Positions 3-40,476 of a stretch of 64,000 nucleotides of DNA are shown here, one piece after another (positions within the stretch are counted from its first letter, which is position 1; each line of letters starts with the position of its first letter). A program made the translations under genes and the position numbers. Where the stretch lies: positions 1-64,000 of the forward strand of contig JAAXWG010000005.1 of NCBI GenBank assembly GCA_013350285.1. Reading direction: 5' to 3'. This DNA is from Candidatus Altimarinota bacterium. GTDB taxonomy: Bacteria > Patescibacteriota > Gracilibacteria > BD1-5 > UBA6164. The notes below the pieces were generated by a model. The model ran no database searches. It was not told the DNA's origin and saw only the letters and a list, made by a program, of their open reading frames with translations.

Positions 3-81
3 TGGTACACCCGGCAGGACTCGAACCCACGCAAAACCCAGGTCCGCGGCCTGGTGCTCTATCCAACTGAGCTACGGGTGC
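3..81 (-). tRNA. tRNA-Arg (anticodon GCG), CCA encoded
   Basis: On the minus strand this folds as a complete cloverleaf: a 7-bp acceptor stem (one G-U pair), a 4-bp D stem with A20 in the D loop, a 5-bp anticodon stem, a T loop TTCGAGT on a 5-bp stem, discriminator A and an encoded CCA. The seven-base anticodon loop is CCGCGGA, which puts GCG at positions 34-36 (plus-strand bases 45-47) and so reads CGC/CGU as Arg. A20 and C35 are established arginine identity elements. Position 33 is C instead of the almost universal U. The variable loop is about 7 bases. The fold is certain; the identity is likely. Confidence 0.9.
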
Positions 82-207
82 ATGTATCAAATAAGATTTC
101 TCTTTTTTGTTTTCCTATTGTATGAAGAAATATTATTTTTCAAAATTTAATTTTTCACTCAAAAATATTTTTAAAAATATTCTCTTTTACAAAGAAACGA
201 AACTTTA

Positions 208-213
208 TATAAT
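208..213 (+). promoter_or_regulatory. Candidate -10 box upstream of recJ
   Basis: A TATAAT hexamer lies 43 bases before the recJ start, in the 175-base gap between the tRNA (minus) and recJ (plus). No good -35 is visible at 16-18 bases. In DNA this A+T-rich such hexamers also occur by chance, so the support is weak. Nothing else stands out in this gap. Confidence 0.3.
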
Positions 214-256
214 CACTTACATAAAAAACTTTTAAGATAATTATTTTAAAAAAAAT

Positions 257-1903
257 ATGCAAGAACAACTCAGTATAAGCGGAAATATTATTGCTTATGA
301 TATAGATACAAAAGAAAAAAGTATAGAGGGAATACTTCGCTCTCGTTTTGAAAATGAAGCAGATATAGAAACTTCTTTGGATGATTTACTTGATCCCTAT
401 CTTCTTGCAGGGATGAGTGAAGCCGTGGCGAGGATAAAAAAAGCTCATACATCACAGGAAAGAGTAATTGTTTTTTGAGATTATGATGTTGATGGAGTGA
501 CAAGCACTTCTCTTTTGATGCATTTTTTTAAAAAGATTTGAGTCAATGCGAGTTATAGACTTCCACACAGAGCTAAAGATGGCTATGGACTGAAAAATTA
601 TTTTATAGATGAGCTTGCTTCTCTCGGAGTTTCACTCATTATCACGGTTGATTGTGGAACGAGAGATGGAGCAGTCGTTCAATATGCAAAAGAAAAGGGA
701 ATAGAAGTCATTATTACTGACCACCATACCGTTCCAGAAGATAATTTACTTGAATCAGTGTGTCTTATCAATCCAAAGAGACAGGATTGTCCTTATCCAT
801 TTAAAGATTTGGCAGGAGTGTGAGTTTGTTTTAAGCTTATTATGGCTCTTGCAAGAGATTTTTTAAGCGAAGCAGAATACAAAAAATACATTCAAGAATC
901 TATTGATATTGTGGCGATTGGAACGGTTGCGGATTGTATGGTGCTGACAGGAGAAAATAGGATTATTGTCCAAGAAGGCTTGAAACAAATAAAAAATTCG
1001 AGATCAAGAGGAATTAAAAAAATGATAGAAGAAAAAATTCACGAAGATTTGGATGCAGATATTTTTAGTTTTCTTATTGGTCCAAAGCTCAATTCAGCCG
1101 GAAGAATGGCTGATCCTTATAAGGCGGTAAGTCTTATTCTCAACCAAGAAGAAAGTGTGCATACGACTTTGCAAGAACTTGAAAATCTCAATGATAAGAG
1201 AAGGAAATTGACTTATAAATTTTTTGATGAAGCAATGCTTCAAATTAATCAAGATGATAATATTTTATTGTATCATTCTCCGGAAATAGAGCACGGGATT
1301 ATCGGTATTGTTGCAGGAAAATTAACGGAGCGATTTTATAAACCATCAATTGTTTTGATAGAAGAAGGTGATAAACTTGTGGCAAGTTGTAGAAGTCCTG
1401 AGTATTTTAATATTTCTGAAATATTAGAAGAAAATAAGCATTTTTTTGAAGCTTTTGGTGGACACAAACAAGCAGCTTGATTTACTATAAAAAAAGAAAA
1501 ATTTGAGGAGTTTAAACACATTATTTTACAAAAAGTTAATAATCAAGATTTTTCTCTCTACAAAAAAAAGATTATTGTTGATAAACTTATTTCTCCAAGT
1601 GAAATAAGTTTTAAACTTATCAAAGAAATGACGAGATATAAACCTTTTGGTATTGGTAATACCAAGCCTATTTTTATGATACAAAATCTTGATTATTCTG
1701 CGATAGAATATCTTGGATCATGAGTCGATCATATAAAAATAAATCATAAAGACGGCTATAAAATCTGTGGATTTTGATTTTGACATTGTCGTGATATTTT
1801 AAGACAATCTTCAAAAATAAGTATTATTTTTGATCTACTTGAAGATAATTTCAATGGAAAAAAAGGGATTATGCTCAAGGTACTAGATATTATTATAGAG
1901 TAA
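257..1903 (+). CDS. recJ: Single-stranded-DNA-specific exonuclease RecJ
   Basis: 548-residue 5'-3' exonuclease on single-stranded DNA, used in recombination and mismatch/base-excision repair; the length is normal for the family. The DHH-superfamily metal ligands are visible: GDYDVDG at residues 74-80 (its first Gly is a UGA codon), the DHH triad at 155-157, then the DHHA1 domain with GPKLNSAGRM near 275 and the closing GGHKQAAG near 401. The ATG at 257 is used because it gives a normal N-terminus before motif I; no Shine-Dalgarno is seen. A CGA codon near base 1330 falls at the conserved Arg of the E-R-F motif, showing that CGA still means Arg here. A weak long-loop inverted repeat follows the stop. 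Confidence 0.96.
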
Positions 1904-2025: not shown

Positions 2026-3252
2026 ATGAAGCTAAAATCTTTTTCAAAAGCTTTTACTCTCGTGGAGTTGATAATAGTAATAACAATAATTACAATATTA
2101 TGAGCAATAAGTTTTTTAAGCTATCAATGATTTACTCTTTCGGCAAGAGATAGTAATAGGATTACTCAAGTGGCAAATATAACAAGGGCTATAGAAGCAT
2201 ATAGAATAAATAAGACAGTTCCAATGCCAGAAAATGCTATAAGAATAGAGAATAATGGGAATCTCATAGCTTATCAATGATATCTCTGACAAGAATGATT
2301 AAGTATAATAGGAGGAAATCCTAGATGATGAAAGGATCCAAAAGATGATACATATTTTAGTTATTATGTAACAGAAAGTTTTTATAATTATCAATTACTC
2401 GTATATCTAGAAAGATGAGTATCATATATTCCTCAGACATATGCAGATGCTGTAGACTATAGTAAAAGGATAGTAAGAGTATATGGAGATAGATTATGAA
2501 TATTAACAGATATAAATAATACTCCAATTCAAGAAATACCAAATATAAAAGCTGTTGGAAAATTTGATATAGCAACAGCGACAGGAGTATATGTTGCTTA
2601 TTTATGAGAAAATTATGTAATAGAATGAACAGGAAGTATGCTTACTCAAATAAGTCCAAATGGAAATTGTAAAAGAATAAAAGAATTAGGAATAGGTAAA
2701 AAAAATGGAATTTATAATATTAATCCATTAGGGACATGATTTATTCAGGTTTACTGTGATATGACAACAGATTGAGGTGGGTGGACATTGGTAGCGAGAA
2801 GTGTAAATGGAGGGAGTTGAGATTTTTGATGGAATGTATCTACAGGGGCGGTTGATAATTATACAAAACCATATTCTTTATGAATTTTATCAAAAAATAT
2901 TATTTCAAAATGACAATTATTGGTTGCTCGTTATATAAACAAAAATCAGATACAACTTGCACTTAGATTTAATGTAGATAAAAATATATTAATAACAGAT
3001 TATAGCTGAGATTCTCCTACATCATCTCAAAAAGTAGTTTATGATTGATGAATTCTTGATACAGAAAAAACTTGGAATCATGCAAGAATGTTTCTTCAGT
3101 GGTGATGAATTAACAATACGAGTTATTATCCTTTTAGAGATATAACTCCATTAGGTATATATTGATTGAGTTCTTGGGGATTTAATACTGCTGCATATAG
3201 TTCAGGCTATTGAGCTTTTAATTTACAGCAAGGAATGATATTTGTTCGCTAG
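2026..3252 (+). CDS. Type IV pilin-like protein with C-terminal fibrinogen-like domain
   Basis: 408 residues. The N-terminus is a class III (prepilin) signal: a short basic leader, then AFTLVELIIVITIITILG, giving Glu at +5 after cleavage at the Ala, followed by a single hydrophobic helix. The end matches the fibrinogen C-terminal domain: GIYNINP near residue 228, then VYCDMTTDGGGWTLVAR at about 242-258, the signature of FReD lectin-like domains. The family links suggest a pseudopilin exposing a sugar- or protein-binding head at the cell surface, perhaps for attachment to a host cell (inference). Glycines are frequently UGA. It ends 9 bases before the convergent rsmG stop. Confidence 0.85.
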
Positions 3253-3261
3253 AATATTTTT

Positions 3262-3894
3262 TTATTTCCTTACAAAAATCAAAATTCTTTCTTGGTCGCC
3301 GAGAGTATATTTTTCTATTTTTTCAATTGTTGCTTTCCGTTTTTTAAGGATTTTTTCTCCTTCTTTGAGTTCTTCAGGATTATTGCTTTTATAGGCGATA
3401 AAATATCCTCATTTTTTCACAAGCGGAAGAGCATATTCAAGCAGTTTTGGAAAATAAGCAACGGCTCTGGAAAGGAGAAAATCATATTTTTCTTTGTATT
3501 CATCTTTTCTTCTCATTTCTTCGGCTCTTCCCACAATTGCTTTTATATTTTCTAGCTCAAGATTTTCTACGAAATACTGACAAGATTTTATTTTTTTCTC
3601 AGTAGAATCAATAAGATCCATTGAAAAATCTTTTTTATCTTCATAAAATATTCACAAAGGAATTCACGGAAAACCACCTCAAGTTCACAAGTCTCAAATA
3701 TTTCAAGAAAGATTTATAAATTTTGTGAGCATCAAGCTATCAATAAAATGTTTTTCAACTACTTCATCTTTTTCTCGGATAGAAGAAAGATTTATTTGTG
3801 CATTTTTTTCCAAAAAAAGTTCAAGGAATTTTTCAAATTTTTTTTGTTGTTTTTCGTTTAATATGAGATTATATTTTTTTAATAGCTTTTGCAT
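3262..3894 (-). CDS. rsmG: 16S rRNA (guanine-527-N7)-methyltransferase RsmG
   Basis: 210 residues, normal for RsmG (GidB), which methylates N7 of G527 in 16S rRNA using S-adenosylmethionine. The N-terminal helices carry the family motif around INLSSIREKDEVVEKHFIDS. The SAM-binding loop DLGTGGGFPGIPL spans residues 68-80, and three of its glycines are UGA codons, so under the standard code the gene would look broken. Convergent with the pilin gene upstream in coordinate order. It is transcribed away from the zinc-ribbon gene's 3' end, so it may be co-transcribed with that gene. Confidence 0.95.
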
Positions 3895-6202: not shown

Positions 6203-8686
6203 ATGCAACTCACAAAAGCAATTTTGCATACAACTGATACTTATATAAACTCTCTTAAAAAATCATGAATAGAGACAGTTATGGATATGATTATGCACAC
6301 ACCAAGAGATTATGAAGATAGGACCAATGTTCTTGATTCTCTTTCTCTCGTGAATATAAAAGAAAAAAATACTCTTCTCCTTACTTTAATATCTATTTCT
6401 AGCACAAGAACAGCAAATAATAAATTGCTTACAAAGGCTATTTTTGAAGATAAATCTTGATTTTTGAGTGAATGAGTTTGGTTTAATAGACAATATTTTG
6501 CTAACTCAATAAAAGTTTTTGAAGGGAAAAAGGTGATTGTATCATGAAAGGTAAAATATGAATATGGAAAACTTGTTTTTTCTTCTCCGGATGTAGAGAC
6601 AGATTTATCAAAAGTATCCTGAGAAATAGTTCCAATTTACCCTGATGCAAACTATATTCCATGAAAATGGATAGAATCAAAAATGGAATTATTGAAAAAT
6701 TATTTTGAAGAAATACAAGAAAATCTTCCTCTAGAAATTTTGAAAAAATATAATTTTCTTCCGAGAAAAGAAGCATTTTTAAAAATTCATTTTCCAAAAA
6801 ATAAGCTTGATATTTCTCAAGCAAAAGAAAGACTTGCTTATGAAGAATTATATCTTATCAATTACAAAGCAATTGAAAAAAAATATCAAAGTTTTTCTCT
6901 CTCAGAGTGAAAAAGTATAGCTCTTCCTTTTTCTCCCGACTTAGTAAAAAATATTATTGCAAAACTACCTTTTTCTCTTACTGACCAACAAAAAATCTCT
7001 CTTTTTCAGATACTCAAAGATATGGAGCTTTCTCATGCTATGAGAAGACTTCTTGAAGGAGATGTAGGAACAGGGAAGACAATAGTGGCACTTATTTCAG
7101 CTATTCATGCTATTAAGCAGTCAGAAATTCTTGGTAAGAAGATACAAGTCGCTTTTATGGCTCCGACAGAAATTTTGGCAAGACAGCATTTTGAAAGTAT
7201 GGGAAATATTATTTTTGAGTATGGAATAAGCCTAAATCTTCTTGTTTGAAGTACTTCTGCAAAACAAAAAGAGTCTATAAAAAAAGATTTAAAACAAGGA
7301 AATCTTGATATTATTGTTTGAACTCATGCGATTATTCAAGAAGATGTATCTTTTCATAATCTTTGATTTGTTGTAATTGATGAACAGCATCGTTTTTGAG
7401 TAAAACAAAGAGAAGTGCTTGAATCTTGAATTTTATCTTTTGTAACAAATGGATTTCGTTTTATAGACAATATAGAAGAAGCTGATTTTGATTTTATAAA
7501 AGCAAATATTATTTGTAATTTGTATTCCAAAAATAAACATAATCTCAAAAAAGAAGATTTCAGTGTCATAAAAGACAAGGATAAAATTATTGCTTTTTGA
7601 AGGATTTTTTCTCTTTCTTGAGACGAATATGAATTAGCAAATTTATGGGTTGATCCATCATATAGAGGAGAAAAACTTGGAAATAAATTGATAAAATTTT
7701 TGTATATGACAAAAATAAATTCAAAAGAAAAAAAACTCTTTGTGTTATGTAAGGAAGATTTATTCCATTATTATGAAAAATTATGATTTGATGAAATGGA
7801 TGAAAATTACTCTCTTCAATTTTTTGAAATGATAAAAAATGCAAGGCTTTTTAATGAAGAATATAAACTTATGCAATTAAAAGAGTTTGATATTATAGAA
7901 AAAATCTCCCTTGTTGATACGAAAAGTTCGCTTATTCCTCATTCTCTCAATATGACTGCAACACCAATTCCAAGAACTCTTGCTCTTACTTTGTATGGGG
8001 ATCAAGATTTATCCATTATTTCTGAATATCCAAAAGGAAGAAAGGAAATATTTACTCGTGTCGCAAAAAATGATGAAGAAAGACAACAAATAGAACTTTT
8101 TGTGAGAAGTGAATTAGAAAAATGAAGACAGGTTTTTTGGATTAGTCCTTTGGTAGAAGAATCAGAGAAAATAGATCTTGCTAATGCGATAAAAACAAGT
8201 GAAAGTTTGAGAGAAATATTTGCTCCTTTTTCCGTTGGACTTTTACACGGAAAAATGAAAGCAAAGGAAAAAGAAAGTATAATGAGACAATTCCAAAATA
8301 ATGAGATTCAAGTTTTATCTTCTACTTCGGTTGTTGAGGTTTGAGTTGATATTCCAAATGCAAGTATTATGTGTATTGAATGAGCTGAAAGATTTGGTCT
8401 TTCACAACTTCATCAATTTAGGGGAAGAGTTGGAAGAGGAAAGCACCAATCGTATTGTTATCTTTTTCCCAGCTCATGACAAAAAACAGATAGGCTGAGA
8501 GCAATGGAAAGGACAAATAATGGCTTCCAACTCGCAGAAATAGATCTTGAAATCAGAGGACCGTGAGAAGTGTATGGAGTGAGACAAAGTGGAATTCCAG
8601 ATTTAAAAATGGCTGATTTGAGGGATTTAGAACTTATAAGTACTATCAGAGAAGATATAGAGTCTTTGTTTAAAAAGAAAAAATAG
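6203..8686 (+). CDS. recG: ATP-dependent DNA helicase RecG with inserted GNAT acetyltransferase domain
   Basis: 827 residues against about 690 usual. RecG remodels stalled forks and Holliday junctions. The wedge/OB region is followed by Walker A GDVGTGKT (286-293), the DExH box IDEQHRFGVKQRE (around 392-404), [12 protein letters not shown] from 584, and the C-terminal QFRGRVGRG and EIRGPGE motifs. The DEQH box and MTATP are 191 residues apart instead of roughly 25-30. The extra ~160 residues look like a GNAT N-acetyltransferase: [17 protein letters not shown] (motif A, acetyl-CoA pyrophosphate loop, VDPSYRG at 483-489) and YYEKLGF at 523-529. The frame is continuous across the insertion and both helicase halves are intact. 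Whether the GNAT is active, and its substrate, are unknown. Confidence 0.95.
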
Positions 8687-11494: not shown

Positions 11495-12328
11495 ATGAAA
11501 GTTTCAGTTTTAATTTGTACTTATAATTCTTGAAAGTATATTTTTTCAACAATAAAAAATGTTTTAAATCAGACATTATGAGATTTTGAATTATTAATTT
11601 TGGATAATAATTCTTCTGATGACACAGTAAAAAATATAAAATCTTTTCAAGATGAAAGAATAAAATTATTTGAATTATACAAAAATCTTTGACCTTATGG
11701 AGGTTTAAATTATTTGCTTGAAAAGTCTTCTTGAGAATATATTGCTATTCTTGATCATGATGATTTATGGGCTTCAAATAAATTAAAAAAACAAGTAGAT
11801 TTTTTAGATAAAAATATTAACTATATTTGATGTGGTACAAAGACGGTGATGTATTATGAAAGTGATAAAAAATATTTTTTGTATTATTTAAAAGAAAAAA
11901 ATAAATATACGATTCATTCATCTCTTGTATTTAGAAAATGAAATTATAGATATGATGAAAATATATTGTATTTTGCAGATGCTTATTTTCAAAAATTTAG
12001 TTTATGTAAGTGAGAAAATAAAATTTATAATTTAGATGAAACTTTGACTTTTCATCTTATAAAAGATAATTTCAATAATTTAACTTATTCTTGGTTTCAG
12101 TTAAATTTAAAAAATATGAAAAGATTATTTGATGTTCATTGAATGACTTTTTATGCTTTTTTAGTTTTTTTATATGAAATAAAAAGATATGCCATAATTA
12201 GGATAGGTATTGCAAAAATATTCCCTAAATTTTTTAAATGTTTTGATAGATTGCCTTATAAATTAGTTTGAGATTGATTTAAAAATTTTGAAGGAAGTGA
12301 ATTTGAAAAAATATTTGAGATAAAATAA
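11495..12328 (+). CDS. Glycosyltransferase family 2
   Basis: 277 residues. GT-A fold: MKVSVLICTYNSGKYI at the start, LILDNNSSDDT for the nucleotide site and AILDHDDLWASNKL with the acidic metal-binding motif. The C-terminal third has no clear membrane helix. Transfers a sugar from a nucleotide donor during surface glycan assembly (family knowledge); donor and acceptor unknown. It follows galE by 9 bases and is probably in the same transcript. UGA is the main glycine codon. Confidence 0.88.
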
Positions 12329-12390
12329 AATTTGACTTTAAGTTTTAACAAGTATAATTGCTAAAATTTAATTTTTAATAAAATTAGCAA

Positions 12391-13601
12391 ATGAATATTG
12401 GAATAAAAGAGTATTTTATTTAAATAAAATACTTAATTATTTAGATAATACAGAGCTTATAAAAGTTTTGATATGACAAAGAAGAGTTGGTAAATCTTAT
12501 ATAATGAAGCAAATTATATATTTTTTAGAAAATACAAAGAAAATAAAATCTTCAAATATTATTTATATAAATTTAGAAATTGATTTCTTGAAATTTAATA
12601 ATATTTTAGAGTTAGATAATTATATAAAAAATATTATAAGAAAAGTAAAAAATAAAAATAGATTTTACATTTTTTTAGATGAAATACAAGAAATTTCTTG
12701 ATGGGAAAAACTTATAAATTCTTATAGAGCAGATGATAATTTTGATGTAGATATATTTATTACTTGAAGTAATGCAAATTTACTTTCATCTGATTTATCA
12801 ACATATTTAACTTGAAGATATATAGATTTTGAGATAATGCCATTTAGTTATTTAGAGTATTTATGATATTTTAATTTAGAAAATACTAAACAAAATTTTC
12901 TAAATTATACTAATTTTTCTTGAATTTCAGAGCTTTATAAGTTATCAGATAATGATTCAAAATTAAATTTTTTGAAATCAATAAAAGATAGTATTATCTT
13001 AAAAGATATAGTAAAAAAGTTCAATATCAAAGATATTGATTTACTTGAAAAATTATTTTTTTATTTAGCATCAAATATTTGAAATTTATTTTCACTTAAT
13101 TCAATTGTAAAAAAATTAAGGTGAATAGAAATAAAAACAAATACAACAACTATTTGAAATTATATAAATTTTTTGGAAAAAACTTATATTTTACACTGAG
13201 TTTCTAGGTATGATTTAAAATGAAAAAAAATTCTTGAATGAGAAAAAAAATATTATTTAAATGACTTAGCTTTTAATAATTTTTTTTCTTCAACTTATGA
13301 TATATGATGATGAAAAAAATTAGAAAATATTGTTTATAATTATTTAAGACAAAATTGATACACTATCTATATTTGAAATATATGAGATTTAGAAGTAGAT
13401 TTTGTTGCCGAAAAATGAAAAGAAATTTTGTATATACAAGTTGCTTATATTATAAATAATGAGGATGTTTTTAGAAGAGAGTTTTGAAACTTAGAGCAAA
13501 TAAAAGATAATTATACAAAAATAGTATTATCTTTGGATGATGTTTTAACACCATATAAATGAATAATTCATAAAAATATATGGGATTTTTTAGCTAGTTA
13601 G
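12391..13601 (+). pseudogene. AAA-type ATPase with DUF4143-like C-terminus, probable frameshift at the start
   Basis: From about base 12372 to the TAG at 13599 one frame reads as an ATPase of the DUF4143 group: KRVFYLNKILNYLD, Walker A IGQRRVGKSYIM, Walker B YIFLDEIQEIS, the sensor segment FITGSNANLLSSDL, TGRYIDFEIMPFSYLEYL, then a C-terminal nuclease-like core with LEVDFVAEKG. That frame has no ATG, GTG or TTG before the conserved start. The only good ATG (12391, MNIGIK) is in another frame and reaches TAA after ten codons. One extra A in the AAAA run at about 12405-12408 would join them. So it is either a fresh frameshift, a sequence error, or an unusual start. Terminated by the hairpin at 13606-13629. 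Confidence 0.75.
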
Positions 13602-13605
13602 AAAT

Positions 13606-13629
13606 AAAGAGATGATTTATCATCTCTTT
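13606..13629. terminator. Bidirectional terminator between convergent genes
   Basis: AAAGAGATGA and TCATCTCTTT form a perfect 10-bp stem with loop TTTA, with T-rich DNA on the plus side. It separates the ATPase gene (plus) from the end of the polysaccharide operon (minus). Confidence 0.8.
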
Positions 13630-13638
13630 ATAATTTTT

Positions 13639-14619
13639 TTACTGAAATTTTTTAAGAATAAATGATTTTATTTTATTTAATGATTTTTTAGGAATCATAT
13701 TTAATAATTTTTTAGGAATCAAAAAAGCGATTATGAATACTATTATTTTGTTAATTTTAAATTTATATTTTAATGATTTTTTGATGCTTGAAAAAGCTTT
13801 TTTATAATTTCAAATGCTTAAATTTGATAGCGAATTTGTAAAATAAATATTAGAATATCAAATATTTTTTAATTTTTCAGGGCAATATTTTTCTATGACT
13901 TCAGAGAGCATACTAAGAATTTTATCATAATTCTTTGAAATATTATTTTCATAAATTCTGTATCAAAAAGCTATATTTTCATCTATTGAAAAATAATTTT
14001 TATCTCTTAATTTTTGAAAAATTTTTATATTTAAAACCCAGTCATTTGAGAAAATTTCTTCATCAAAACCTCATGTTTCTTGTAAAAAATCTTTTCTTAT
14101 AAGAGATGAAGAAATTGATAAAAGAGGAACTTTACAATAAATATTTTCTAAAATTTTAGAAGTATCATTATCAAAAAATTTAAATGTATTGAATATATTT
14201 TTATGAATAGATAATCAGCTCAAAATATTATTTTCGTAAAAAGTTCAATTTCAATATATAATTTTAAAATCAGGATTTTTTAATAATTTTTTTCTTTTTT
14301 CATCTAGTGTTGATAATATAAAAAAATCATCACTATCCATAAAAGTTATAAATTCTCAATTAGATTTTTTTATAGTTTGATTGTAAGTGTATCAAGGTCA
14401 TTTATTTTCTTTATTTTCATTAAATATTATTTTTATTTCTTTATTATTATCTATCCAATTTTTTATTATTTCCTTTGAATTGTCATTTGAACAATCATCA
14501 ACAATAATAATTTCAATATTTTCAATATTTTCAAATTTTATAATACTATCAAGACATTCTTTTATATAAGGTCATTTATTGTAATTTGCAATACAGATTG
14601 TAATGATAGGATTAGTCAT
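13639..14619 (-). CDS. Glycosyltransferase family 2
   Basis: 326 residues, last gene of the minus-strand polysaccharide operon. GT-A motifs: ITICIANYNKGPYI, EIIIVDDCSNDNSKEII, and FITFMDSDDFF with the metal-binding acidic group. A basic, hydrophobic C-terminal third may lie on the membrane. Very A+T-rich, with glycine written mostly as UGA. Starts 4 bases upstream of the next gene's stop-side gap, consistent with translational coupling. Specific sugar unknown. Confidence 0.87.
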
Positions 14620-14622
14620 TTT

Positions 14623-15411
14623 TTATTTATTAAATTTTATATATGATAATATTTTTTTAGAAATTACTTTTGGAATTAATAAATAAGAAAACCATAAAAT
14701 AATACTTTTCATAAAATTTGGATAATAGTTTCTATATTTTATGCATAATCTTATTGATTTTATAATCATCTCTTTATGACTTTTATTACTAGTATTATTT
14801 AAATGATATCTATATTTAAATAGAAATTCTTGTAGATTATGCATTTTTGAAATAGTTCATATTTTTAACCATAAATCATAATCATCTGTTTTAATAAATT
14901 TATTATCTAAAAATCCAACTATATCTAAAATATCTTTTCTTATTAATACAGCTCAACAAGCAAATTGAGAAGATCTTAATAATCTATTTCTAATTATTTC
15001 ATCCGTTTCTGGAACTATATTTTTTCATATAATATTATTATTCTCATCAACATTTATTATATTACATCAAACCAATCAGTAATCAGTATTTTTTTCAAGA
15101 AATTCTACTTGTTTTTTTATTTTATCTTCCATAAAAATATCATCATGATCTAAAAAACATAAATACTTTCAAGTAGATTTTTTTATTCAAATATTTCTAC
15201 TTTCAACAATATTTAAATTGTTATTATTTTTTATATAAATAATTCTATCATCATTAAATGATTTTATTATATTTTCTGAATTATCTTTTGAAAAATCATT
15301 TATTATAATTAATTCAAGATTTTTATATGTTTGATTTAAAACAGAATTAATTGTTTCAAGTATAAATTTTTCTCAATTATAAACAGTTAAAATTATTGAT
15401 ACTAAAGGCAT
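14623..15411 (-). CDS. Glycosyltransferase family 2
   Basis: 262 residues. Motifs MPLVSIILTVYNGEKFI, LIIINDFSKDNSENII and YLCFLDHDDIFMEDKI define a GT-A transferase; ACGAVLIRKDIL and TDDYDLWLKIG are typical later segments, the last holding the likely catalytic base region. Gly codons in these motifs are UGA. It sits 3 bases downstream of the preceding gene's stop in the operon. Donor and acceptor cannot be told. Confidence 0.88.
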
Positions 15412-15414
15412 ATT

Positions 15415-16371
15415 TTATTTATTAGTGTATATTTTAATTAATAAATCATTTAAAAATTTTGGAATAATTATTCTAATTAATATTTTAATTCTATTAAATA
15501 TATTTAATTTATAGGAATATTTAAAAGATTGATATAAAAAAGTAAGACTTTGAATTTTATTATTATTGGAAATATTATAAATTGATTTTAAATAGTTTAT
15601 TCTATATAAAATTATTTTTTTTATTAATTTATCTGAGTTATATATTTCTAGATAATACTCATAAATTGATAAATTTTCTTGAAATAAAGTATCTTTATTT
15701 TCAAATCAAGAAAAATTATTTCAATGATATCTATAGAAAAAAATTTTATTTTTTAAATATCATATATTTATTTCAGGTAGAATTCTCAAATATGTAAAAA
15801 AATCTAATAATCAAAACATTTTTTCTCAGTTTGGTGAAAAAAGTGGATAAAATTTGTCATAAATAGAATACTTTAATGTTACACATCAAAAAGATTTTAT
15901 AAAATTTTCTCAATATTTAAGAAAGTCAATAAATGAAATTTTTTTTAAGAATTTCATTTTAGTTTTGTTGTTTATTATATTTCATTCTTTATTAATTTCA
16001 CTATATCAGTTATATAAAAAATCAGTATTTGGATTATCTAAAAAATATTTTATCTTATTTTCTAAATTATCATAAGTATATAGGTCATCTCATTCTAAAA
16101 ATGTAATAAATTCGGTTTTTTTATCTACCATTTCAAATAAAAAATTCATATTATTAACTATTCATTTATTTTGAGAATGATGCCAAGCTTTTATTTTTTC
16201 AGGATATTTTTCTACATATTTCTGGATGATATTCCAAGTTTCATAATTTGGACTATCATCTCAAATTAAAAGCTCCCAATCTGTAAATGATTGAGATAAA
16301 ATACTTTCAATAGTTTTTGCTATAAAATCTTGATGTTTATAAGTTGTTGTTATTATTGAGATTTTTGGCAT
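15415..16371 (-). CDS. Glycosyltransferase family 2
   Basis: 318 residues. Starts MPKISIITTTYKHQDFIAKT, followed by DWELLIGDDSPNYETW and ITFLEGDDLYTYDNL (GT-A metal motif). After about residue 200 it continues with a lysine/isoleucine-rich tail without obvious membrane helices. In my translation every glycine codon I noted is UGA, none GGN, so the gene is fully adapted to code 25. Two bases separate the upstream methyltransferase stop from this start. Confidence 0.87.
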
Positions 16372-16373
16372 GA

Positions 16374-17111
16374 TTATTTTACTTTTAGTATTATTAAAAT
16401 GTTTCAAGTAAAAGGATTATATTTTGTTGGTCATATTTTAGATAAATTCAATTTATCTAAAATAATAAATTTTAAATTTACTATTCATATAAGAAATAAT
16501 CAAAATAATCAATGTTTTGATAAATATTTCATTTTGAATAAATTTAAATTTTGATATTCAGTAGTATCTCATTTATATTCAATAATTTTTGAGTTAGTAA
16601 ATATTTCAGGAATTATATCAAACATTATATTTTGATAATGTTTTGGATATGGATGATATTCCCATACATGAGCTATTGTAAGTAAAATATATCATCATTT
16701 TTTTGTAATTCTCTCAATTTCTTGAGCATAAAATTTTACATCTTTTAAATGTTCAAATACTTGAGTACTAATTACTATATCAAATTTTTTATCTTCAAAT
16801 GGAATTTTTCATCATTCATAAATAATATAATTTCAATTATTTTCAGGAGATTCTCATATATCTAATCAATAATATTGACAATTTTTTTTATAAAAAAAAT
16901 CTTTATATATCATATTTCAACATCAAAAATCCAATATGGTATTATTTTTCATTACAAATTTATCTACAAAATAAGTTATATATTTCTTTAAACTTATAAA
17001 ATGTATTCTTGATATATTTAGTATTCAAGGAATAATTCTATCTCAATAAAAAATATTAAAAAGGGTATTAGTTAATTTTTTTCACAAAAGATTTTTTATT
17101 ATTTCTTTCAT
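16374..17111 (-). CDS. Class I SAM-dependent methyltransferase
   Basis: 245 residues. The SAM loop reads ILDFGCGNMIYKDFF, followed by YYGLDIG for the ribose contact, then KKFDIVISTQVFEHLKD and ITKKGGYILLT, the standard order for class I methyltransferases of the Methyltransf_11 type. Set among glycosyltransferases, it may methylate a sugar of the repeat unit or cap the chain (inference). Its start abuts the stop of the upstream GT gene (TAAATG). Confidence 0.87.
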
Positions 17112-18047
17112 TTAATATTTATTAATTTTTAAAATATTTTTAATTATGTTTTTTATTAAATCTAAATCTTTATTATTTCTTATAAAATTCTCTATTTTTA
17201 TAGATTCTGATTTTTCAATAAGATTTCTTCTTTCTTTTCCTATTTCTGTTAAAATACAGTTTTTTAAACCAAAATTTTTCTTCAAATATTTTAAATGTAA
17301 AAATGTTAAATTAAATCTTTTAAAAAATAAATTATGTTTTAATTCTTCTCATATTTCATTTTGAATATAATATGTAGATACTGAAACTGGATATATTCAG
17401 TGATCTCAATATTTTCAAGAATATATATCATTTTTACAAATTCAAATATTATTATTTTTTTTAAATAAATTATATCACCAATATGCAATATATTTTTTTG
17501 GTATTTTTTCTAAGATATATTTTCTTATTTTTTTCCATTTTTGTGAAATTAATAAATTATCATCATCTAATCTCATTACATATTTATAGGATGATTTAGA
17601 AAAACACCAATTAGTATAATATGAAAAAGAATATAAACTATTTCATATTAAATTTTTTGTTCATATTGGTAATATATTATAATTGTATTCAAAAAATTTA
17701 ATTTTTTTTTGGTATTTTTCTGCAAGTTTTAAACATATTTTTTTAGTATTATCCGTAGACATATTATCTACCAATATTATTTCATCTAAAAAAGGAATGT
17801 GAGATTCTACTACTATTTCTAAAAAATCTTCTGCATTTTTTAGTCTTGCAATTCAACTAATCCCCAATGGTTTATTTTCTGTAAACCATTCATAAGGTAT
17901 ATTCATCTCTTTTATTCACTCTTTATTTATGAGAATATTTGAATCAAGTTTTTTTGCTATAATTTTCAATTTTATTCAAGCAATTATATCCATTAAAAAT
18001 CTTGTAATTTTGATATTATCAAAAAACTTATATATTTGTATTATCAT
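17112..18047 (-). CDS. Glycosyltransferase, family 2-like
   Basis: 311 residues. After ~60 N-terminal residues comes LGISGIARLKNAEDFL, then DEIILVDNMSTDNTKKI and YVMRLDDDNLLIS, a GT-A pattern with a DDD metal site. The divergent first motif (ISGIARLKN in place of the usual V.I.TYN) resembles GT2 members acting on longer acceptors. The stop abuts the methyltransferase ATG. The start overlaps the upstream gene by 7 bases (ATGATAA), suggesting translational coupling. Confidence 0.82.
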
Positions 18048-18847
18048 TTTCTTAGATATTTAGATAATAATCATACTCTATATTTAATTGTTCATATTAT
18101 TACTTTCTTTATTCAAATAATAAATCATTCATCAAATAAAGATTTGAAACGAGTGCTTAAAAAACTATTTCAAATATGAATTATTATTCAGTTTTTTAAA
18201 TTTACTCATCTTAATCATAAATTTTTAAATCTTGTTCAAATAGCAAATTCATCTACATAGTTTTCATATCAAAACATTATTTTTTTCATTTCTTCAGTTC
18301 TTCTCATTCATGGATTATATGAAAATCCTTTACATAAATCTCATTTTTCGTCATTACGAAAATATATAAATTCTAGATTATTTTCAACTATTTTCTCATT
18401 TGAAAATAACTCATTATATCTTTCATTTTCTTCTTTATCTAATAATTTTAATCATCAATCTTTTTTAAAATCTCTTAATTGAACAATTCATATATTTTTA
18501 TTTTTTTCTAATAAATTAATAGATATATCAAAAAAATTAAAATCAACTTTTTTAAAAAACCAATCATCTTCACAATGGAAAATATAAGGGGTGTTAATAT
18601 TTTTATATAATTTTTCTAATGCTCACTGTTGTTTGCTTCAACTTGTATAAATTAAATCCCATCATTTTAAAAATCAGTTTTTATTTTCTTTTATGATTTT
18701 TTTTATATGTGATTTTTTTGTTGAATCTTCTGTAATTATTTTTTTGTATTCAGATAAATTAATATTTTTTCAAAGGGAAATAATTGTTTTTTTTAATAAT
18801 TTATATCTTCAACAAGAAGTAATTCATATTGTAATTTTTTTATTCAT
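18041..18847 (-). CDS. Putative glycosyltransferase
   Basis: 268 residues. ITIGITSCGRYKLLKKT at the start, an acidic IFHCEDDWFF that could be the metal site, and AIGTRFKNLGLRG near the C-terminus. The pattern resembles GT-A glycosyltransferases with an E-D-D motif, but the match is weaker than for its neighbours. It overlaps the acetyltransferase by 8 bases and the next GT by 7. Role in the glycan pathway is inferred from context. Confidence 0.75.
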
Positions 18848-19517
18848 TTTTAGTATTATTATTTAAAAAGTCTAAATTATAATTTTTCTTAACTTTTTCA
18901 ATATCCCAATTCCACCGTTCTAGTTTTAGTAAATTATTAATGGTATTTTCATCAAAACGATATTTTATAACTTTTCATGGATTTCAAGCATATATAGCAT
19001 AATCAGGAACATCTTTTGTTACTATAGTTCAAGCTCATATTACAGCACCATTTCAAATTTTTATTCAAGGGAGAATTATACAATTCATTCATATCCAAAC
19101 ATCATTTCAAATAATTATATCTCATCAATGGTGTTGTTCTTTATAATCAATAAAAGGATAATTTGTGAGTTTATTACTTAAGTGATCATTATATGTAATC
19201 ATATTTGTATTCATTGCAACACAACAATATCTTCCTATTTCTATTTTATAATTGTTTAATGAAAATAAAAATGTATTAGGTCAATTTATATATGAATATT
19301 CTCAAATTTTAAAATTTCATCTTATAGAAGTTTCATAAAGAGAAACATTGTTATCAAATTGTATTACTTTATTTATTATATCAAGAATTGAAATTTTTTG
19401 AATAGTTCATCGTGATAAATTAATATTTTTATATTGAATTGATAAGATTTTCTTTTTTATAAAATTTTTGAAAAAATTTGGTAAAAAAGAATTCCAAAAA
19501 AAGTATGCTAGTCTCAT
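18840..19517 (-). CDS. Hexapeptide-repeat O-acetyltransferase
   Basis: 225 residues. The C-terminal half is a left-handed beta-helix: HHGGDIIIGNDVWIGMNCII, LPGIKIGNGAVIGAGTIVTKDV, then YAIYAGNPGKVIKYRF, the hallmark of CatB/NodL-type acetyl-CoA-dependent O-acetyltransferases; the catalytic His is probably in the N-D-H or H-H-G-G segment. Most turn glycines are UGA. It ends with a CGG-TGG pair where relatives usually have Trp-Trp, noted in findings. Likely acetylates a sugar of the surface polysaccharide. Confidence 0.87.
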
Positions 19518-19519
19518 TT

Positions 19520-20371
19520 TTATAAATTATCCAAATAATCTTTTAATCACTCTTTCCAATTTCTTAACTTTATATCACTGTCATTTATGAGTTTTGAAAA
19601 ATTAGGTCTTTGGGCTTTTGTTTGATATTCACTTATTTGACAAGGAATTATTTTTGTATTTTTTTCTTGCATTGTAATTATTTCACAAGCAAAATCAAAC
19701 CAACTAATATCATTATTTTCTGTTTCATTTGAAAAATGAAAAATACTTCCTCTATATTTTTCAATATTTTTTATTACTTGAGAAACTGCGAGACTTAAAT
19801 CCACAGTATAAGTAGGGTTTCAAAATTGTTCATTGATGACTTTTAATTCACTTTTTGTTTCAGAAAGTCTTAAAATAGTATTTACAAAATTCTTAAATTC
19901 TTTTCATCATCCATAAAGCCAACTTGTTCTTACAATAATAGCATTTTTATTTTCTTTTAGGGCAAATATTTCTCATAAATATTTACTCATACCATATTCA
20001 TTTATAGGATTGCAAATATCATTTTCATTATATCAGCTTTCTTTTTTTCCATCAAAAACATAATCTGTTGAAAAAGTTATAAAATCTATTGCATATGTAT
20101 TTGAAATTTTTGCAAGATTATAAACTCCAAGAGTATTGATATGATAATTTAATAATTTTCATATATCTTCTGCATCATCTACTGCAGTATAAGCAGCACA
20201 ATTTAAAATTATGTCAGGATGTATTTCTTTGACTTTATTTTCTATGGATTCAATATCCATAATATCAAGAGTATTTTTATCATACGAAAATATCTCAAAA
20301 TCATTTTTATGCCTATCTACAAAATCTGTTGCGAGCATTCCGTTTGCTCATGTGAGGAGGATTTTTTTCAT
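19520..20371 (-). CDS. rmlD: dTDP-4-dehydrorhamnose reductase RmlD
   Basis: 283 residues, usual length. Catalyses the last step of dTDP-L-rhamnose synthesis using NAD(P)H. N-terminal NAD(P) loop LLTGANGMLA, DIILNCAAYTAVDDAE, FSTDYVFDGKK, the catalytic NEYGMSKYLGE (Tyr and Lys) and IIVRTSWLYG are all in place, as is QRPNFSKL near the end. The stop is 2 bases before the acetyltransferase start. Together with rmlC, rmlA and rmlB this completes the rhamnose pathway in one operon. Confidence 0.93.
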
Positions 20372-39840: not shown

Positions 39841-40476
39841 TTAATCCTCTCCTTCCCAATTTGAAAGAAGAAGATCAAGACGGATTTCATAAGGTTCAGA
39901 TGAGCTTGAATCTCCCCATCGTACAATAGATGCAATATTCATTTTTTCATCGTTTGATGTAGGAGTCATATCTCCGTCAGTATCTTCATAGTTTATCAAT
40001 ATTTCTCTTGTGAAAAGAGGAGCAAAATTTGTTCCTCAGCTTTGAGTATAAAGTCCATCTCAATCAAAATTTACTCTAAAATCGTTTCTATAATTACTAT
40101 CTCTATATCCTGTTCATGAGCTTATTTCTTCTTGAAGTTTCCATCTATTATCAATATCTTTGTATACAACAAAGCTTGTATTATTTTGAATATCTGTTCC
40201 TGTTCCTGTATTACTAATACAATTGACATCATAATTGAGGGTATTCCAACAATTTTCCAAATCGGCACTAAAAAGAAGGGTATTTGTATTTCTTATATTC
40301 GTCAAAGCCTCAACTCATTCTCTTGCTATTTGAATAGCTACTATACGATTTCAGGTACTTACTGAAAGTGCTTTTGATCGTGAAAAAATATCATACATTC
40401 CTACTATTCCCATTACAACAATAAGCATAATGACAAGGGCTTCTACAATACTTGTTGCTTTTATATTTTTTTTCAT
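39841..40476 (-). CDS. Type IV pseudopilin-like protein
   Basis: 211 residues. N-terminus MKKNIKATSIVEALVIMLIV followed by more hydrophobic residues: a short basic leader, then a helix with Glu at +5 if cleavage follows the Ala, as in the pilin-like protein at 2026. The rest is a small globular domain with NCWNTLNYDVNCI (two Cys that may pair). Probably a minor pilin or secretion pseudopilin (PilV/GspI-like), processed by a prepilin peptidase not in this window. Single gene with the divergent rlmN upstream. Confidence 0.78.

Follow-up and report, generated by a model that had tools for sequence, protein, structure and literature searches.

A pilin fused to a fibrinogen-like domain belongs to an order-wide family whose tails appear to be exchanged between heads

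The gene at positions 2026-3252 of the window, by which is meant the whole 64,000-nucleotide stretch analysed (C2:1-64000 of a 1.28-Mb assembly in 8 contigs, 98% complete), encodes a pilin head fused to a C-terminal fibrinogen-like (FBG) domain, and is one member of a multigene family that is spread across the order and whose tails can be exchanged. The fusion had been put forward in an original prediction, and it is now borne out by profile matches, by a predicted fold and by conservation in dozens of relatives. The reading that we favour, with moderate confidence, is that the product is a modular, probably minor, type IV pilin, which displays an exchangeable FBG recognition domain and belongs to a family with homogenised heads. 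The features concerned are the following:

2026..3252, + strand: probable type IV pilin of modular build, ending in a fibrinogen-like domain (408 aa in code 25)
2026..2052, + strand: class III leader peptide, residues 1-9 (MKLKSFSKA), with an N_methyl PF07963 match at residues 7-29
2053..2661, + strand: pilin head module, residues 10-212, from family-wide conservation in alignment A1
2059..2205, + strand: long N-terminal pilin helix, residues 12-60, from DSSP of the predicted model
2665..3249, + strand: fibrinogen-like domain, residues 214-408 (PF00147, NF040941; fold match over 206-408, Z up to 11.4)
2749..2784, + strand: VYCDMTTDGGGW signature, residues 242-253, at whose end head and tail usually part in related genes
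2785..3249, + strand: variable tail downstream of GGGW, closer to tails of other genomes (41% to L150) than to those of its own paralogs
3229..3249, + strand: conserved terminal strand QGMIFVR, residues 402-408, from alignment A1 and the predicted model
257..1903, + strand: RecJ-type DHH exonuclease, the upstream neighbour, a housekeeping gene unrelated to pili
3262..3894, - strand: convergent downstream neighbour, a housekeeping gene with homologs in 20 of the 20 genomes searched, which from a reading of its sequence we take to encode an RsmG-like methyltransferase
C1:157121-158434 (L013), C1:47398-48666, two genes on C4 and a longer gene on C8: other pilin-FBG fusions of the same genome

When translated with code 25, the gene yields 408 intact residues, with in-frame TGA read as glycine (n=24) and TAG as the stop; the standard code (table 11) was rejected, as it leaves the gene fragmented, with no covering ORF of at least 80 aa. 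The gene stands alone among housekeeping genes and is not part of a pilus operon. In all 20 of the 20 relatives searched, each of which has rsmG, no pilin-FBG homolog was found beside that gene, and near rsmG at L201, L202 and L203 only pilin-head matches were seen.

Several other features of the window were recorded. At 6203-8686 (+), an 827-aa RecG-type helicase read in code 25 carries a GNAT domain (Acetyltransf_7, 43 bits, residues 451-530) between its DEAD part (283-408) and Helicase_C (637-746), which may represent a domain insertion or an assembly chimera. A 211-aa protein at 39841-40476 (-) has a degenerate minor-pilin-like start (ATSIVEALVIMLIVVMGIVG) and no Pfam match, and the block at 12000-20000, which combines glycosyltransferase-like and sugar-nucleotide genes at a GC content of 16-20% (surroundings about 27%), resembles a surface-polysaccharide locus.

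The N-terminal region of the protein had been described as a type III signal followed by a pilin helix, and this description holds: a class III leader is matched over cut-off by PF07963 N_methyl (24.1 bits against 21.2) and TIGR02532 (19.4 against 16.3), its cleavage is predicted before Phe10, and the model places strands after the helix at residues 12-60. In alignment A1, which comprises 36 fusions, the head is well conserved as far as the GGGWT motif. Elsewhere in the genome there are seven matches to PF00437 (PilB/PilT-family assembly ATPase), eight to PF00482 (PilC-type platform protein) and a prepilin peptidase (PF06750, 92.8 bits). With several ATPase and platform paralogs more than one machine is possible, and the head's best full-length profile kin include GspG/PRK10574 models, far below their cut-offs; the protein might thus be a type II-like pseudopilin, or a surface-anchored protein outside a long pilus, in which the head provides a membrane anchor and secretion tag. 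We regard this as rather improbable, since the full pilin head, with its long helix and beta domain, is conserved, and since the characterised precedent is that of modular pilins at the pilus tip (PMC9934059). Under the favoured reading as a pilin, prepilin peptidase would process the head, which would then be built into the type IV pilus of the cell, perhaps at its tip, with the C-terminal FBG domain facing outward for recognition.

The fibrinogen signature VYCDMTTDGGGW, which had drawn attention to the C-terminal region, lies far above chance, as judged by PF00147, NF040941 and PDB hits to FBG proteins. Both profiles exceed their curated cut-offs, with PF00147 Fibrinogen_C matching residues 214-268 (30.8 bits, cut-off 22, E 3.3e-7) and the NF040941 GGGWT domain matching residues 214-256 (57.8 bits, cut-off 30, E 7.9e-16), and sequence matches of the tail in the PDB include FIBCD1, lamprey serum lectin, MFAP4, TL5A, tenascins and intelectins. 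The COLFI profile (PF01410), which had been named alongside FBG, gave only sub-threshold matches, and kinship with fibrillar collagens was set aside in favour of FBG/GGGWT. The profile matches reach only the first ~55 residues of the FBG domain, and the remainder is backed by the predicted fold. An AlphaFold2 model built on an alignment of 25 relatives (pLDDT 77.9, pTM 0.75) recovered in the C-terminal region the fibrinogen fold on which the original prediction had been staked: Foldseek returned FBG domains at probability 1.00, and with VIA-align residues 206-408 matched tenascin-R, ficolins, TL5A and intelectins (Z from 11.4 to 10.1, rmsd ~3.5, 160-180 residues), the best match having Z 11.4 and rmsd 3.4 over 166 aligned residues (model 209-408) and all 50 of the 50 entries listed being FBG or intelectin proteins. 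An FBG fold over residues 206-408 is thereby supported by the model, in which the distal half of the domain (about 321-395) is of low confidence, with pLDDT at about 50-65 over 321-380. For a pilin of a second tail type the model was weaker (Z 6.8 at best) and too uncertain to prove an FBG fold.

Animal FBG lectins carry a second disulfide and a GGWW-type region near the ligand site. In the translated protein no cysteine follows Cys244 of the FBG domain, and the second disulfide/GGWW-type region of ficolin/TL5A-type lectins is missing. On these sequence grounds the protein would not be placed among the animal FBG lectins of the ficolin/TL5A type; its ligand site is remodelled relative to theirs, so that the type of ligand is not readable from the sequence.

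In the window genome, a search with NF040941 found six places over the cut-off and three below it. All six of the former are pilin fusions, the 2026-3252 gene included, and all nine NF040941/GGGW places lie in or beside pilin-type ORFs. Kindred pilin heads in the same genome bear other C-terminal modules, namely a right-handed beta-helix, a FecR-type module or a region of no recognised family, and in one case a module with a sub-threshold Fib_succ_major match. A pilin with the same head type (L017, G000:C8:301387-302982; 43% identity to the 2026-3252 head) has a tail that by eye, with no profile support, resembles the formylglycine-generating-enzyme/C-type-lectin fold.

Among relatives, matches to NF040941 (E of 1e-3 or lower) occur in 55 genomes out of 77 from the same order, which is of Gracilibacteria type and uses code 25 (51 over the cut-off), with up to 32 copies per genome, and in none of 191 genomes sampled across the phylum outside the order, 14 of them from the same class. 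A search with a DNA pattern specific to code 25 found 90 stretches, and the listed matches with informative titles all belonged to Candidatus Gracilibacteria or Patescibacteria. When GGGW ORFs of code-25 relatives with a complete 5' end were screened by regular expression, a canonical pilin signal was found at the start of 54 of 76; among the remaining 22, several begin in a degenerate pilin-like manner, and the FBG proteins of one genome are mostly secreted. Tandem arrays of 4-6 pilin-FBG genes are present in several relatives. Isolate McBI.71 (G060; L082, L083, L098) has 32 GGGW matches, of which those inspected are secreted proteins without a pilin head, one of them with three FBG signatures in 998 aa.

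Evidence that heads and tails have separate histories comes from comparisons within genomes, where near-identical heads (94-97% in DNA) joined to unrelated tails were seen in three genomes. In the window genome, four heads form one supported clade of the head tree, and L013 (C1:157121-158434) and L014 (C4, about 112.6 kb) share the stretch between nt 16 and 671 at 95.7% DNA identity, some windows reaching 98-100%, while their upstream sequences and tails are unrelated. In MAG 4281-140...061, three genes share the segments 3..754, 3..763 and -26..757 (identities 0.95-0.97), and in KhW_metabat.16 the shared segment runs from -2 to 746 (identity 0.94), again with unrelated tails. In these four comparisons homology stops within ~10 nt of the end of GGGW (762, 762, 765 and 744), and a further array pair and a STA_93 pair also stop there (700 against 696, and 1363 against 1362); two other pairs stop elsewhere, 82 nt past GGGW and about 270 nt before it. 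As the GGGW motif is itself constrained, real crossovers may sit somewhat upstream of these estimates.

The same pattern is found between genomes. Two species, represented by MAG-139 (L113) and MAG-1076 (L109), can be compared at the first gene of their arrays. Homology there covers the 5' flank and the head (-295 to 753), is lost at 753, which is the end of GGGW, and is back 5 nt past the stop codon. At this syntenic locus only the tail has been replaced, over the whole stretch between GGGW and the stop codon. The MAG-139 tail and the MAG-56 tail at the same position have 74-75% identity, against only 48% for their heads, and the MAG-1076 tail is a member of another tail cluster. Across the family, tail similarity is undetectable in 32 of the 48 head pairs at least 55% identical, among them all six with heads at 88-97%, and 11 tail pairs at least 40% identical have heads under 50% (in one, tail 75% and head 48%). 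Heads of the window genome cluster together, but those of its tails for which relatives were found match other genomes. The window genome is without a close relative (none in its genus among the compared genomes), and the evidence for swaps comes from loci other than 2026-3252.

Two other accounts of these discordances were weighed. Repeats may be misassembled in MAGs, but several independently assembled genomes show the within-genome pattern, and the L113/L109 swap concerns genes only 74% identical, with no near-identical repeat. It could also be that no tail exchange takes place and that ordinary paralogs under diversifying selection simply have ends that evolve fast, with heads constrained by assembly; in favour of this, the tails are exposed and vary greatly in alignment A1. 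This we consider very unlikely. The identity of 94-97% between heads extends to silent sites, with the tails at alignment noise; breakpoints between head and tail are sharp; and many tails have clearer kin in other genomes (41-55%) than in their own. Moreover, at syntenic orthologs without a swap the tail is as conserved as the head or more so (head 73, tail 87), and because tails can exceed heads in conservation in this way, fast evolution alone fails to explain the pattern. Simple fast divergence of tails is accordingly disfavoured by the breakpoints, by the discordance of head and tail and by tail kin in other genomes. To judge from the compared sequences, FBG tails are exchanged in modular fashion among pilin heads. 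In the mechanism that we propose, homologous recombination or gene conversion between paralogs would homogenise the heads within a genome, while old and diverse FBG tails would be exchanged between heads at junctions at or near the YCDM-GGGW codons, a short shared stretch where tails change; each cell would then have several pilins, with one handle and different grips.

Other sources of tail diversity were also examined. A search with RVT_1 gave a single match, a 735-aa reverse-transcriptase protein on C1 (L186, G000:C1 about 9-11 kb) with the motifs GLPQG and YNDD, which is not obviously of DGR type; on the evidence of this protein, a DGR seems a less likely origin of the diversity. Spread by phages or plasmids was set aside, since tblastn gave only partial similarity around the FBG start (cyanophages and Pseudomonas megaplasmids). 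In S-RIM14-type cyanophages (KX349303.1 and others), hypothetical proteins encoded at about 31.2-31.8 kb have 34-41% identity to residues 153/182-261, a stretch that extends through the GGGW region of the 408-aa protein.

As regards function, the FBG tail would most likely bind surface glycans of a host or prey bacterium, and the bacterium itself is tiny and probably host-dependent. FBG and intelectin domains are mostly domains for recognition of glycans or proteins. This counts against a pilus-linked role other than host adhesion, such as self/kin recognition, attachment to surfaces or matrix, or DNA uptake with ComEC, as does a report, cited in PMC11452946, that another episymbiotic patescibacterium needs its type IV pili to adhere to its host (Xie et al., 2022). 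Such a role is nevertheless suggested by the pilins with beta-helix, FecR-type or Fib_succ_major-like modules in the same genome and by the proposal that type IV pili of this group also serve DNA uptake (PMC8080830), and we hold it to be possible, though unlikely. From the binding of host proteins or glycans by the modules of Streptococcus sanguinis PilB and PilC, and from the reported part of type IV pili in host adhesion of that episymbiont, we infer adhesion as the role of the pilin. A further reading, offered only tentatively, is that of recombinational switching of adhesins in an order that depends on hosts: at the conserved YCDM-GGGW codons, acting as a built-in junction, whole FBG domains would be exchanged between pilin heads, and the host or prey cells that a lineage grips would change with them.

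It has long been asked how Patescibacteria select their hosts and keep hold of them, and most of the group is uncultured. The family described here provides candidate host-recognition proteins that are concrete, expressible, order-specific and present in multiple copies. Pilins with interchangeable recognition domains predict that host range should follow the tail repertoire, and the GGGW junction makes tail exchange testable from long reads alone.

Modular pilins, bacterial GGGW domains (in NCBI annotation) and fibrinogen C domains in the giant proteins of a related epibiont are already known. The pilin-FBG fusion and the swapping of its tails are apparently unreported, as no report of either was found in the open-access literature searched and no text in it brought Patescibacteria, fibrinogen and pilin together. 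The start of the FBG domain of the 408-aa protein is a clear member of NF040941 GGGWT_bact ('fibrinogen-like YCDxxxxGGGW domain-containing protein'), a model of 46 residues that is silent on pilin fusion and whose listed examples on Pseudomonas plasmids match the FBG part only. With the animal FBG/intelectin lectins (ficolins, TL5A, FIBCD1, tenascin FBG and intelectins) the protein shares the predicted fold, the CDM-GGGW start and the terminal strand, and it differs from them in having no cysteine after 244, a remodelled distal region and fusion to a bacterial pilin. In the antigenic variation of Neisseria pilE/pilS, a conserved 5' pilin part is joined to a 3' part that recombines with silent cassettes. 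The family described here is alike in its conserved 5' pilin part and recombining 3' part, but whole domains from separate intact genes appear to be exchanged, as opposed to short silent-cassette segments. In Ca. Strigamonas methylophilicida, an Absconditicoccaceae epibiont, fibrinogen C domains occur in giant membrane proteins for which host recognition has been proposed (PMC13059738); an FBG-type domain, at the surface of the epibiont and by prediction at the surface here, is common to both systems, whereas the Strigamonas proteins exceed 1,500 aa and the word 'pilin' does not occur in the text of PMC13059738. A close parallel in architecture is with the modular pilins PilB (vWA) and PilC (ConA-like lectin) of S. 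sanguinis, whose grafted modules attach to proteins or glycans of the host (PMC8179133; PMC9934059); the 15 frequent modular-pilin architectures in the main text of PMC8179133 do not name an FBG domain among them. Like PilB and PilC, the 408-aa protein combines a class III leader and pilin module with a large recognition domain at its C-terminus, of a kind not specific to pili, and unlike them it carries a fibrinogen-like module and belongs to a family with many paralogs per genome, in which heads and tails recombine.
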